Below, piece by piece: positions 2,648-5,199 of a stretch of DNA of 5,199 bases. The notes below the pieces were generated by a model. That model saw only the letters and a list, made by a program, of their open reading frames with translations, ran no database searches and was not told the origin of the DNA. Position 1 is the stretch's first letter. Every line of letters starts with the position of its first letter. Source of the stretch: an uncultured Woeseiaceae bacterium (GTDB lineage Bacteria > Pseudomonadota > Gammaproteobacteria > Woeseiales > Woeseiaceae); assembly GCA_947259435.1 (NCBI GenBank), contig CAMYMP010000318.1:1-5199 (forward strand). Direction: 5' to 3'. The position numbers were made by a program, and so were the translations under genes.

Positions 2648-2694
2648 CCGGCGTGTTGTATCAGCGCTCCAGAATTCGGAGCACGACACGCCGG
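2648..2694. repeat. Nested inverted repeat at the convergent gene ends
   Basis: A perfect 9-base inverted repeat (CCGGCGTGT at 2648-2656, ACACGCCGG at 2686-2694) encloses a second 5-base one (GCTCC at 2666-2670, GGAGC at 2678-2682) around a GAATTC palindrome. It covers the stop codon and last codons of the minus-strand envelope gene and starts 16 bases after the aldolase stop. It could act as a two-way transcription terminator, but neither side is followed by a clear T-tract, so that role is inference. Confidence 0.4.
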
Positions 2695-5199
2695 TTCTGT
2701 TCCCGTCCTTCTGCTGTTTCGTTATCGGCGATCGGATTGCTTTCGCCGTAGCCGCGCCACGTCAGCTGATTCGCATCGACGCCGTGGTTGATTAAGTAGT
2801 CGCGCACCGTTTTCGCACGTCGCTCCGACAAACCGCGGTTGTAGTTCGCGTCGCCCCGACTGTCGGTATAACCGGCGACTTCAGTCAGAAGACTCGGGTT
2901 GCGAATCAACGTATCTGCCGCGTCGTTCAGGCTGCGTTCGGCGCCGGGCCGCAGACGGTCCGAGTTTGTTTCAAATCGCACATCGGGCAGTCTGATTTCA
3001 GCCTGAACCTCACAGCCACGACCGTCGACCGCCACACCAAGCGCCGTACCCGGGCACTGGTCTCGCTCATTCAGCACTCCATCGCCGTCCGTGTCCGGGT
3101 CGGGCATCGGTTTGGGTGGCGGCGCGGGTTCCGGCTCGGGCGCAGGTTCTGGCGCGGGCGGCGCAACATAGGGTCGGGAATCCGGCTTGGGACCAAATAA
3201 CAGGCCCACCGAAACGCCCGCGTACCAGGCGTCGCGATCGTAAAAATCAACGTCGCCGCGCAGGAACCACGGGCTCCTCCCGAAGTCGTAGCGCAGCCCG
3301 GCCCCGAATGCGATCTGCACCGACGTCTGCTCTTCGAACGGCACCGGACCGCCTTTGGCACTATTGCTGATGGAGGACAGCCCGATCTTCGCGAACGGTT
3401 TGAGGTCTTCTTCCACGCGCCACTGATAGCCTGCCATCAGCGATGGAACCTTGTAAGTGATCGCTGCATTCGGATACAGGGCAGCTATCGCGGGATTCCG
3501 ATTGGTGATACCGGCCTCGCCAAGGTCCGCGTACTTCAGTTCAGCAAACCAGTGTGGTGAGAACTGCTTGCCAATGAACAGGTGCCAACCGGCATCGTGA
3601 TTCTCGCTCGTATCGTGGAAGAAGTTCTGCGCCTCTTTGTCTGGCGATACATACGAATAGCCGAGGCCCAGGCCACCGTACCAGCAGGCCGCAAAACCGG
3701 CATCATCCCGTTCGGGATCGCTACCGCCGTAGTAATACTCGCCGTTTCCGGGTTCAGTGTAGTGTCCGCACAATGAATCGGCACTCGCGTCGTCAATCAT
3801 TACCAAATTGAGACTCATACCGGCAATGACCGCCATCGCTGCGGCGCTTGTCCTTGCACGCCGTATTACGATGACCGCTGCCAAAGCAAGCAGCAGCAGC
3901 CATCCCACGCTACCCGAACCCGAGACGGCTGTCTCGAGAACCCCGTCAACGTCGATGTAGTCAGGAACGCCATCGTTATCTCTGTCATCGGTGCCCTCAA
4001 TTGCATCGTCGAGACCGTCATTATCACTGTCCGTATCGATGTAATCCGGCATGCCATCACCATCGGTATCGACCGGAGTGTTGGGATCCGGTCCGGCCTC
4101 GGTGGAATCCGGAATGCCGTCGTTGTCACTGTCCGTGTCCTGGAAGTTCGGCAAACCATCGCCGTCCGTGTCGGTCGTGCCTTCGGTGTCATCGAAAATG
4201 CCATCGCGGTCCGAGTCAGGCGCAGTACCGAAGCCATCCAGCTGGTCCACGACATCGGCAATACCATCACCATCGGTATCGGTGATGTCATCGACAACAC
4301 CATCACCATCGGAATCTTCTGCCGCAAACGTCGTGCCGACGATGTCGTTGACGCCGTCATTGTTGCTGTCGACCTCGCGCCAGTCACCAATACCATCGAC
4401 ATCACTGTCCGTCGGCGTCGTGAGCGTGCCCTCGTTGAGAGCCAGCGAGTCAATGATGCCATTGCCGTCGGCATCAATGCCGCCCGCCTCGGTAACATCG
4501 AGCAACGAATCATTGTCACTGTCGAGGTCGCGGTAGTCGGGCACCGCATCCAGATCGGTATTGGTCGGGCTGACGGCATCATCGACACCATCGCCGTTGC
4601 CGTCCGTCCCCAGCGTCACATCGACATCGTAGACATCGTTGATCTGATCACCATCGCCATCCGCCAGCACGTCGAGATCTGCTTCCACCGTATCCGGTAT
4701 GCCGTCGTTGTCGGCATCAATATCGAGATAGTCCCGATCACCGTCGCCGTCGGTATCACGCGGCGCGATTGCGTCATCGACGCCATCGTTGTCCATGTCG
4801 CTGCCGAGCGTTATGTCGACGTCGTATCCGTCATCGATGTTATCGTCGTCGCTATCAACACCAATCGCGATATCGTCTTCGACCGTGTCCGGAATACCGT
4901 CATCATCGCTGTCGCGATCGCGATAATCAGCGAAGCCGTCAGTATCGGTGTCACCCGAGCCTTCGATACCGTCCGGAATACCGTCGTTATCGGAATCCCC
5001 GTCAACGAAATCAGGCGTGCCATCGTTGTCAGAGTCGATCGGCATGTCGGGCGTCGGTCCGGCTTCGATCGCATCGGGAATGCCGTCGTTGTCGGAATCC
5101 GTATCGAGGCCGTCGTTGATGCCATCGTTATCAGCATCAGTGTTCTCGGTACCGTCGGGAATACCATCACCGTCCGTGTCGGCATCGTTCGGGTCCGTT
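2661..5199 (-). CDS. TSP3-repeat / mid-protein anchor / OmpA-family outer-membrane fusion protein (5' end outside window)
   Basis: The frame is open to the right edge, so the N-terminus, including any signal peptide, is missing; the ATG at 5045 is only an internal Met. The 845 visible residues, in order: 1-418, Asp-rich thrombospondin type 3-like calcium-binding units; 425-433, VSGSGSVGW, then a hydrophobic helix (434-445) and RRAR; 455-473, a second hydrophobic stretch ending in ASA, a likely signal peptidase I site; 474 on, mature OmpA part with two Cys (477, 505); ~507-668, alternating aromatic/glycine strands of an 8-stranded-type barrel; 670-699, Pro/Glu linker; 700-729, a DTDGDG unit and a Cys pair (DQC...GRGC), as in OprF/OmpA relatives; ~734-845, OmpA peptidoglycan-binding domain with Asp779 (GYTDSRGD) and Arg794 (LSERRA). 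Their 15-residue spacing equals E. coli OmpA Asp271/Arg286. Inferred role: a porin-like anchor tying outer membrane to cell wall, carrying or releasing a surface array. It converges with the aldolase remnant. Confidence 0.88.
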   Translation of the reverse strand, partial: TDPNDADTDGDGIPDGTENTDADNDGINDGLDTDSDNDGIPDAIEAGPTPDMPIDSDNDGTPDFVDGDSDNDGIPDGIEGSGDTDTDGFADYRDRDSDDDGIPDTVEDDIAIGVDSDDDNIDDGYDVDITLGSDMDNDGVDDAIAPRDTDGDGDRDYLDIDADNDGIPDTVEADLDVLADGDGDQINDVYDVDVTLGTDGNGDGVDDAVSPTNTDLDAVPDYRDLDSDNDSLLDVTEAGGIDADGNGIIDSLALNEGTLTTPTDSDVDGIGDWREVDSNNDGVNDIVGTTFAAEDSDGDGVVDDITDTDGDGIADVVDQLDGFGTAPDSDRDGIFDDTEGTTDTDGDGLPNFQDTDSDNDGIPDSTEAGPDPNTPVDTDGDGMPDYIDTDSDNDGLDDAIEGTDDRDNDGVPDYIDVDGVLETAVSGSGSVGWLLLLALAAVIVIRRARTSAAAMAVIAGMSLNLVMIDDASADSLCGHYTEPGNGEYYYGGSDPERDDAGFAACWYGGLGLGYSYVSPDKEAQNFFHDTSENHDAGWHLFIGKQFSPHWFAELKYADLGEAGITNRNPAIAALYPNAAITYKVPSLMAGYQWRVEEDLKPFAKIGLSSISNSAKGGPVPFEEQTSVQIAFGAGLRYDFGRSPWFLRGDVDFYDRDAWYAGVSVGLLFGPKPDSRPYVAPPAPEPAPEPEPAPPPKPMPDPDTDGDGVLNERDQCPGTALGVAVDGRGCEVQAEIRLPDVRFETNSDRLRPGAERSLNDAADTLIRNPSLLTEVAGYTDSRGDANYNRGLSERRAKTVRDYLINHGVDANQLTWRGYGESNPIADNETAEGREQNRRVVLRILER
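3777..3926 (-). other. Mid-protein sorting-signal / signal-peptide hairpin
   Basis: On the minus strand this encodes VSGSGSVGW, a run of 12 apolar residues (LLLLALAAVIVI), RRAR, a short TSA turn, a second apolar stretch (AAMAVIAGMSLNLVMI) and DDASA before Asp474. The first half has the layout of a GlyGly-CTERM tail: Gly/Ser motif, hydrophobic helix, Arg cluster. Such tails normally end a protein and are processed by rhombosortase, as shown for Vibrio VesB. The second half has the layout of a Sec signal peptide, with RRAR as its positive end and AxA before the cleavage point. Predicted topology: array outside, RRAR in the cytoplasm, barrel outside. Cleavage at either site is inference. Confidence 0.65.
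3945..4118 (-). repeat. 58-residue compound TSP3 unit, C-terminal copy
   Basis: This is the partner of the block at 4911-5084. It starts GIPDSTEAGP, ends YIDVD, and is the last part of the array before the short spacer and the VSGSGSVGW motif. The two copies are separated by about 790 bases of other repeat units, so this is a dispersed duplication rather than a tandem one. Confidence 0.7.
4509..4898 (-). repeat. Tandem 65-residue higher-order repeat within the TSP3 array
   Basis: Two adjacent blocks of exactly 65 residues (195 bases each) align without a gap: 4704-4898 and 4509-4703. Both start GIPDTVE, contain YDVD-(I/V)-TLG at the same place, then GVDDA, and end with a DND triplet. By hand count 38 of 65 residues are identical. 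The insert TVE...YDVDxTLG occurs only in these two blocks, so they come from one duplication of a compound unit. Confidence 0.8.
4911..5084 (-). repeat. 58-residue compound TSP3 unit, N-terminal copy
   Basis: This block starts GIPDAIEAGP and ends YRDRD. It aligns without gaps to the block at 3945-4118, with 35 of 58 residues identical by hand count. Shared landmarks are EAGPxP, PxDxDxDGxPD, DxDSDNDG and IEG. It lies directly N-terminal of the 65-residue tandem blocks. Confidence 0.7.

Follow-up and report, generated by a model that had tools for sequence, protein, structure and literature searches.

The 5,199-nucleotide stretch of DNA analyzed here (the window; contig CAMYMP010000318.1 of an uncultured Woeseiaceae bacterium) carries on its minus strand an open frame that is a fused two-protein surface module: a TSP3-type array, a sorting-type signal, a hairpin, a beta-barrel and a peptidoglycan-binding domain follow one another in a single chain. 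This architecture, its conservation, the alternation of fused and split forms among relatives, and the match between the type of signal and the protease gene present are established by the sequences compared below. We consider it likely that rhombosortase and signal peptidase I would cleave the chain, giving a surface array and its barrel anchor in a 1:1 ratio. The parts of the frame are as follows.

2661..5198, minus strand: whole open frame, 845 residues plus stop; its 5' end is open and lies beyond the window.
3945..5198, minus strand: TSP3-type DxDxDG array, the putative first product, with its N-terminus outside the window (sequence read by eye; TSP3_bac below cut-off).
3900..3938, minus strand: LETAVSGSGSVGW, the GlyGly-type signature motif and proposed rhombosortase cut region (TIGR03501; kept in block alignment A1).
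3864..3908, minus strand: apolar helix 1, residues ~431-445, proposed out-to-in span (apolarity scan; AlphaFold2 helix of low pLDDT, the model's per-residue confidence).
3852..3863, minus strand: RRAR basic turn, residues 446-449 (from nucleotide 3863), proposed to be cytoplasmic.
3789..3851, minus strand: apolar helix 2, residues ~450-470, which would serve the second half as an internal signal peptide (apolarity; AlphaFold2).
3780..3788, minus strand: ASA, residues 471-473 (from nucleotide 3788), proposed signal peptidase I site preceding Asp474.
3195..3686, minus strand: eight-stranded OmpA-type beta-barrel, residues ~505-668 (Pfam OMP_b-brl and OmpA_membrane; AlphaFold2 strands; Foldseek).
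3042..3101, minus strand: short TSP3-type linker from the barrel to the OmpA domain (Pfam TSP_3, 14.9 bits, below the cut-off of 25).
2691..2978, minus strand: OmpA peptidoglycan-binding domain (PF00691, 80.6 bits).

A preliminary description of the window had seen in this one frame a TSP3 array, a GlyGly-CTERM-like tail, a signal-peptide-like helix ending in ASA and a full OmpA module, and the TIGR03501, Pfam and AlphaFold2 results confirm that composition. The motif GSGSVGW occupies residues 427-433, starting at nucleotide 3920, and the Asp474 codon starts at nucleotide 3779. Only two apolar stretches occur in the 845 residues, and they flank RRAR: 15-mers with an apolarity above 1.0 start at residues 423-439 and 448-458, the highest value (2.98) being found at residue 431, in helix 1. 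The Pfam cut-offs are passed by OmpA (80.6 bits), OMP_b-brl (39.1 bits) and OmpA_membrane (22.4 bits). The TSP3 models score weakly (16.0 bits for TSP3_bac and 14.9 bits for TSP_3, with a cut-off of 25), and the DxDxDG repeats are plain by eye. In the AlphaFold2 model of residues 410-845, a helix-turn-helix of low confidence (pLDDT ~41-51) is followed by eight strands and the OmpA domain (pLDDT ~75-96); given this model, Foldseek ranks E. coli OmpA at the top and returns matches 9a2m, 9fzc and 1bxw. The stretch between the barrel and the OmpA domain is proline-rich and then TSP3-type. Relatives are longer than the visible frame (1745 residues in the complete L003, from Marinibactrum halimedae, 1140 in P0002 and 1185 in P0001), and an N-terminal apolar segment of at least 1.9 is present in 15 of the 16 fused relatives with a closed 5' end, the exception being L003 with 1.61.

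The type of the mid-protein signal was assessed with NCBIfam models. TIGR03501 (GlyGly_CTERM, cut-off 15.5 bits) yielded 17.9 bits on slice 3651-3971, 15.6 bits on slice 3777-5198 and 17.5 bits on a 126-residue slice. The corresponding E-values, from 0.004 to 0.02, are weak because the model spans 22 positions. When the full-length 845-residue protein was scanned, TIGR03501 was outside the matches listed, which were the best 25 of 47 families. As for the background rate, the model is over cut-off in one of 14 control genomes. The signature motif LETAVSGSGSVGW has no cysteine, as GlyGly-CTERM requires and as reported for that family (PMC3237569). GlyGly-CTERM signals also stand at the extreme C-terminus, whereas 412 residues lie downstream of the motif in the window. 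The window signal is therefore filed as a mid-protein variant, and not as a member of GlyGly-CTERM. This agrees with the rhombosortase-style variant that the preliminary description had offered as one of two options, which is supported by both sequence and comparison.

The other option was a midcut class linked to exosortases. Such a family does exist (NF033207, midcut_by_XrtH; 175 positions, cut-off 45 bits), but the 126-residue window slice has no match to it at E<=1, so that membership did not stand; the family is also absent among those listed at E<=10 for three window slices (for slice 2661-3860, the best 25 of 44). JDVT-CTERM was rejected for the window signal, given that NF033191 (cut-off 27 bits) does not match the slice at E<=1 and that the signal contains no cysteine. 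MrtJ, the protease of the JDVT system, is over cut-off in none of the three relatives' genomes scanned (G001, G004 and G005).

A search for homologues with residues 405-845 yielded 203 proteins, the best 120 of which were examined. According to a simple rule, the block formed by motif, helix, basic turn and second helix is found mid-protein in 40 or more of the 120; of the top 33, 29 have it, or 31 once P0007 and P0022 are read by eye; the conservation proposed as a check in the preliminary description is thus observed. The regions N-terminal to the block vary among homologues, and several carry other Pfam domains. Across 24 aligned block slices, one Gly is invariant, and conservation reaches 90% or more at the L, T, V and G positions of LETAVxG and at the final Ala of AxA. 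The conservation of the block across homologues rules out a chance origin. At E<=1, 14 of the 24 members of block alignment A1 match GlyGly_CTERM, 9 match MYXO-CTERM and 4 match NF033207. A clear hairpin is present in 37 of 38 fused relatives under a rule that itself demands two Lys/Arg; the turns average 4.0 Lys/Arg, with 3 Asp/Glu across all turns. After helix 2, 35 of the 38 show the pattern [AVST]xA. Sequence and comparison hence support the hairpin-like architecture and the two complete exported halves that had been suggested from the window itself.

The distribution of the module was surveyed by running a barrel profile (A2, 20 rows) on 369 genomes of Gammaproteobacteria, the class of genome G001, where 70 genomes presented matches. 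The survey counts are lower bounds, as the profile searches scored at most 12 candidates per genome for the block and at most 9 for the barrel; A2 matches below ~78 bits (except L040) and three stronger fragments (two in G184, one in G371) were left out. After hand correction, the 98 distinct barrel frames comprise 38 fused (including L002 and L003, which come from outside the 369-genome set), 33 split, 24 alone (no array gene with such a signal as neighbour) and 3 at contig ends. The automatic labels, with the contig-end frame L077 already set to fused by hand, had been 37 fused, 36 split, 22 alone and 3 at a contig end; L056 was then relabelled as fused, and L079, L081 and L087, whose upstream frames resemble lysyl-tRNA ligase by eye, were relabelled as alone. 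L108 is a probable split pair missed by the rule and is counted as alone. A split locus has an array gene with a sorting-type signal at its end, directly followed by a barrel gene of the same family that carries its own signal peptide. Over the 33 split pairs, the barrel start codon lies from -11 to +87 nucleotides from the array stop, with a median of 2, a 4-nucleotide overlap in nine pairs and a 1-nucleotide overlap in four, values that depend on the start codon chosen.

Fused and split forms are interspersed on the tree of 64 barrels, which requires 11 changes between them by parsimony (bootstrap range 11-12), 8 of them forced by well-supported branches. Fused/split sisters with support of 100/100 are L037/L109, L032/L068 and L078/L088, the last two sharing genome G065. 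The window belongs to an all-fused clade (7 of 7 rows, support 100/99), which in a quick tree of 84 rows that includes the alone rows consists of 7 fused frames and 1 alone (L093). L004, L098, one L122 frame (contig ends) and rows scoring below 100 were left out of both trees, and the 64-row tree further omits L089 and all alone rows. The preliminary description had named homologues consistently encoded as two genes as a result that would speak against it; instead, both forms occur and alternate. This alternation strengthens the two-product model, and the strongest argument at hand for the fusion being cut is that split relatives produce its two parts separately.

The proteases encoded alongside these modules correspond to the type of signal. 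Five loci were found with the window protein, 48-89% identical, and rhombosortase (TIGR03902) is over cut-off in all five of their genomes, so the search for this enzyme suggested at the outset gave a positive answer in these relatives. In the five rhombosortases read from these genomes, GLSG and, further on, a conserved His are kept. Two of these genomes, G005 (L022) and G001 (L065), also have GlyGly proteins of the ordinary C-terminal kind, with GSLGW; the motif reads GSIGW in L024 and GSIGC in L020. Genome G001, which holds the relative L001, has two rhombosortases over cut-off, on contigs C69 (L008) and C16 (L011), and in G335 (contig C70) the gene of an ordinary C-terminal GlyGly protein, L072, adjoins a rhombosortase gene. 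An exosortase (general Pfam model) is present in two of the five genomes.

Over the whole set, rhombosortase is over cut-off in 126 of the 369 genomes. It is found in 34 of 34 genomes positive for the block profile against 92 of the 335 others, with exosortase in 13 of 34 against 111 of 335; the block profile also catches ordinary C-terminal GlyGly proteins (e.g., L051 and L054), so not all 34 genomes bear modules. Fused or split modules occur in 38 genomes, and rhombosortase in 37 of these, G106 being the one without it. Genomes with GlyGly-like modules carry rhombosortase in 28 of 28 cases against 98 of the 341 others, and MrtJ in 7 of 28 against 45 of 341. The exosortase link of the preliminary description finds no counterpart for these modules, the enzyme being present in 11 of the 28 genomes against 113 of the 341. 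Genomes with JDVT-type modules, in turn, carry MrtJ in 14 of 14 cases against 38 of the 355 others, exosortase in 10 of 14 against 114 of 355, and rhombosortase in 13 of 14. JDVT genomes are thus enriched in all three enzymes, and what the counts teach is that neither signal type is met without its matching enzyme.

NCBIfam models served to check the division between JDVT and GlyGly-like signals used in these counts, first for 20 module signals and then for nine further GlyGly-like ones, four of which pass TIGR03501; all other module signals were typed by pattern alone. NF033191 is the best match of all 16 pattern-called JDVT signals and is over cut-off in 13. Four cysteine-free module signals with a JDVT-like texture (L037, L109, L048 and L036), two matching NF033191 below cut-off and two unmatched, were entered as GlyGly-like in the protease counts. 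In some relatives, JDVT-CTERM itself stands mid-protein and precedes a same-family barrel (43.3 bits for a slice of P0041, 30.9 for L045, 34.2 for L104 and 34.0 for L115, cut-off 27). By coordinates, 8 of the 14 JDVT genomes (G318, G189, G048, G082, G312, G323, G069 and G217) have an MrtJ gene a short way downstream of a module barrel gene and on its strand. In G318, L041 and the gene at G318:C54:2164-2454 place a JDVT array gene, an OmpA gene and an MrtJ protease gene in series, and the seven other genomes are alike by coordinates. Judging from their sequences, the JDVT/MrtJ relatives are a second protease system that shares the same layout.

In the proposed mechanism, the chain would be exported through an N-terminal signal peptide, which falls outside the window and is present in complete relatives. 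Helix 1 would cross the inner membrane from outside to inside, the chain would turn at RRAR, and helix 2 would cross back and serve the barrel half as its internal signal peptide. A rhombosortase cut at or after the Gly/Ser motif would free the TSP3 array, whose new C-terminus could be joined to a lipid prior to carriage to the surface in a type II secretion system (T2SS) step. A signal peptidase I cut after ASA would free the OmpA-type barrel, which would reach the outer membrane and bind peptidoglycan. The hairpin remnant would be discarded, and the two products would be equal in number. Array and barrel probably cooperate, by analogy to TraA/TraB of myxobacteria. The topology, both cuts, the lipid, the T2SS step and the physical partnership are predictions from sequence. 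In Vibrio cholerae, rhombosortase cleaves VesB and exposes the second Gly, which later bears glycerophosphoethanolamine, and surface localisation of VesB requires the T2SS (PMC6219818). A GlyGly-CTERM-type signal has also been described to act as an independent unit (PMC13393428).

Several observations weigh against this reading. The TIGR03501 scores scarcely exceed the cut-off, and the model's threshold is passed by four of nine further GlyGly-like module signals scanned; GlyGly-like here means any signal not JDVT by pattern, which is a looser class. Members of A1 also match MYXO-CTERM (9 of 24) and, weakly, NF033207 (4 of 24). Most JDVT genomes carry rhombosortase as well (13 of 14), which makes the contrast between the two systems one-sided, and the 369 genomes are related, so p-values for the co-occurrence are descriptive and uncorrected for kinship. 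Further rhomboid matches, below cut-off, exist in all five host genomes, and such enzymes could cut instead. Lastly, a rhombosortase in the window's own genome is presumed from the genomes of relatives.

Other explanations were considered. Signal peptidase I alone may cut, with the array either staying in the inner membrane by helix 1 or being freed by a different protease (a GlpG-type rhomboid, for instance), and rhombosortase having no role. The AxA site kept in 35 of 38 fused relatives and the other rhomboid matches in all five host genomes are in line with this, but the presence of rhombosortase in 28 of 28 GlyGly-like genomes against 98 of 341, and of MrtJ in 14 of 14 JDVT genomes, predicts signal-specific processing, and we regard the explanation as unlikely. 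We give still less credit to an uncut chain, with a hairpin in the inner membrane, an array that is periplasmic or outside, and a barrel spanning the outer membrane. The sequence does not outright forbid such an arrangement; however, the same two parts are separate genes in relatives, the tree demands at least 8 changes of form, and split barrels bear an ordinary signal peptide where helix 2 would be.

A cut by an exosortase, as in the midcut-by-XrtH class, appears very improbable. NF033207 members of G020 follow the same principle by eye (signal, helix, basic turn and second helix), and four of the 24 A1 members match the family weakly, with a best E-value of 0.0027. Yet the window slice is unmatched at E<=1, and exosortase is present in two of five host genomes and in GlyGly-like module genomes at 11 of 28 against 113 of 341 others. 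An error of sequencing or assembly, in which a stop codon was lost and the fusion thereby created, can be practically discarded: the adjoining aldolase frame is 97 bases short in comparison with L001, so the assembly or the strain may hold errors, but the same fusion is shared by L001, L002, L003 and 35 further distinct fused frames, and every row of the window clade is fused (7 of 7, 100/99; 7 fused and 1 alone when alone rows are included). Division of the chain by rhombosortase and signal peptidase I is the explanation we favor.

The principle of such a module is already known or proposed, with MXAN_5598, TraA/TraB and midcut-by-XrtH, a different family, as precedents. Like the window protein, MXAN_5598 of Myxococcus xanthus has a large adhesin-like N-terminal part, a mid-protein sorting signal, an outer-membrane barrel and an OmpA domain (PMC11980579). 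Its signal, however, is MYXO-CTERM, with a cysteine and the myxosortase MrtX, whereas the window has a cysteine-free GlyGly motif for which rhombosortase is proposed; the two proteins were likened by description only. The authors suggest a fusion of two genes, propose processing of the N-terminal part and point to TraA/TraB, and they cite earlier work for sorting tags that function mid-protein (PMC11980579). MXAN_5598 is listed among vesicle OmpA domain proteins (PMC4158809).

TraA/TraB, the outer-membrane-exchange pair of Myxococcus xanthus, share the layout of a surface receptor with a C-terminal sorting tag and a barrel partner with TSP3 linker and OmpA domain (PMC3325183, PMC12045341), although they are two genes and use MYXO-CTERM. 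The gene traA overlaps traB by four bases (PMC3325183). TraB consists of a barrel, a TSP3 linker and an OmpA domain, and the measured TraA:TraB ratio is 1 to 0.98 (PMC12045341), which offers an independent parallel for the 1:1 idea. The window fits the TraB layout, in that its sorting-tagged surface part is followed in turn by a barrel, a TSP3 linker and an OmpA domain. Membership of the TraB family was rejected, since NF033763 yields 78.3 bits on the window against a cut-off of 700, with its best stretch at 699-842. This model is over cut-off in none of the 39 module genomes; the matches listed cover ~267-518 of its 522 positions (TSP3 and OmpA), leaving the barrel unmatched, and it matches 3 of 14 control genomes too.

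With the GlyGly-CTERM/rhombosortase system (TIGR03501, TIGR03902; PMC3237569, PMC6219818), the window shares the tripartite signal, and its relatives share the presence of rhombosortase in their genomes. Published GlyGly-CTERM signals lie at the extreme C-terminus of carriers described without another span after the signal peptide, whereas the window has a second helix and 372 residues past ASA. The JDVT-CTERM/MrtJ system (NF033191, NF033192; PMC11980579), which in some relatives occupies the same place before a same-family barrel, differs in its cysteine-containing motif and its protease, the window signal being cysteine-free. Midcut-by-XrtH proteins resemble the window by eye in having an internal sorting-type signal, a helix, a basic turn and a helix. 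Their over-cut-off members, all from G020, are 185-254 residues long, unlike the window protein, and the enzyme is of a different class by name. No OmpA module was seen by eye in the two G020 loci inspected, and at G020:C40:129320-132725 short midcut-by-XrtH proteins form a tandem cluster. NF033207 matched none of nine genomes scanned, eight of them with modules, and the controls were also without a match; when 80 of the 124 exosortase genomes were scanned, 10 matched, 1 of them over cut-off. A literature search, mostly without subscription papers, found no paper on midcut-by-XrtH. The same search found no earlier account of the rhombosortase and MrtJ mid-protein forms, of the fused/split alternation or of the signal-enzyme match.

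The plus strand of the window holds two further frames. A class I fructose-bisphosphate aldolase at 1829-2631 is broken, with 97 bases missing at ~1919-1920 and the frame shifted, when compared with the intact 299-residue gene of L001; the window copy is either a real pseudogene or an assembly error. At 1-1761, a 586-residue frame draws no match from Pfam (E<=0.1) or from NCBIfam (E<=10), and is kept in L001 as a 603-residue gene in the same gene order.

If the proposed division of the chain is correct, a membrane-embedded sorting protease would act mid-chain, and one gene would supply a surface protein along with the same amount of its outer-membrane anchor. Fused and split forms with protease-matched signals occur naturally as a set, which makes the choice of substrate by sorting proteases, and whether they need a free C-terminus, directly testable. 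The layout of myxobacterial TraAB would also be placed in a much wider setting. More tentatively, two-part adhesion modules of the TraAB type may be widespread beyond myxobacteria and depend on two or more unrelated intramembrane proteases, among them rhombosortase and MrtJ. Repeated fusion would have turned such modules into single genes, with products cut within the membrane to give receptor and anchor at 1:1, and in Gammaproteobacteria some of them might serve in cell-cell recognition or in outer-membrane exchange.

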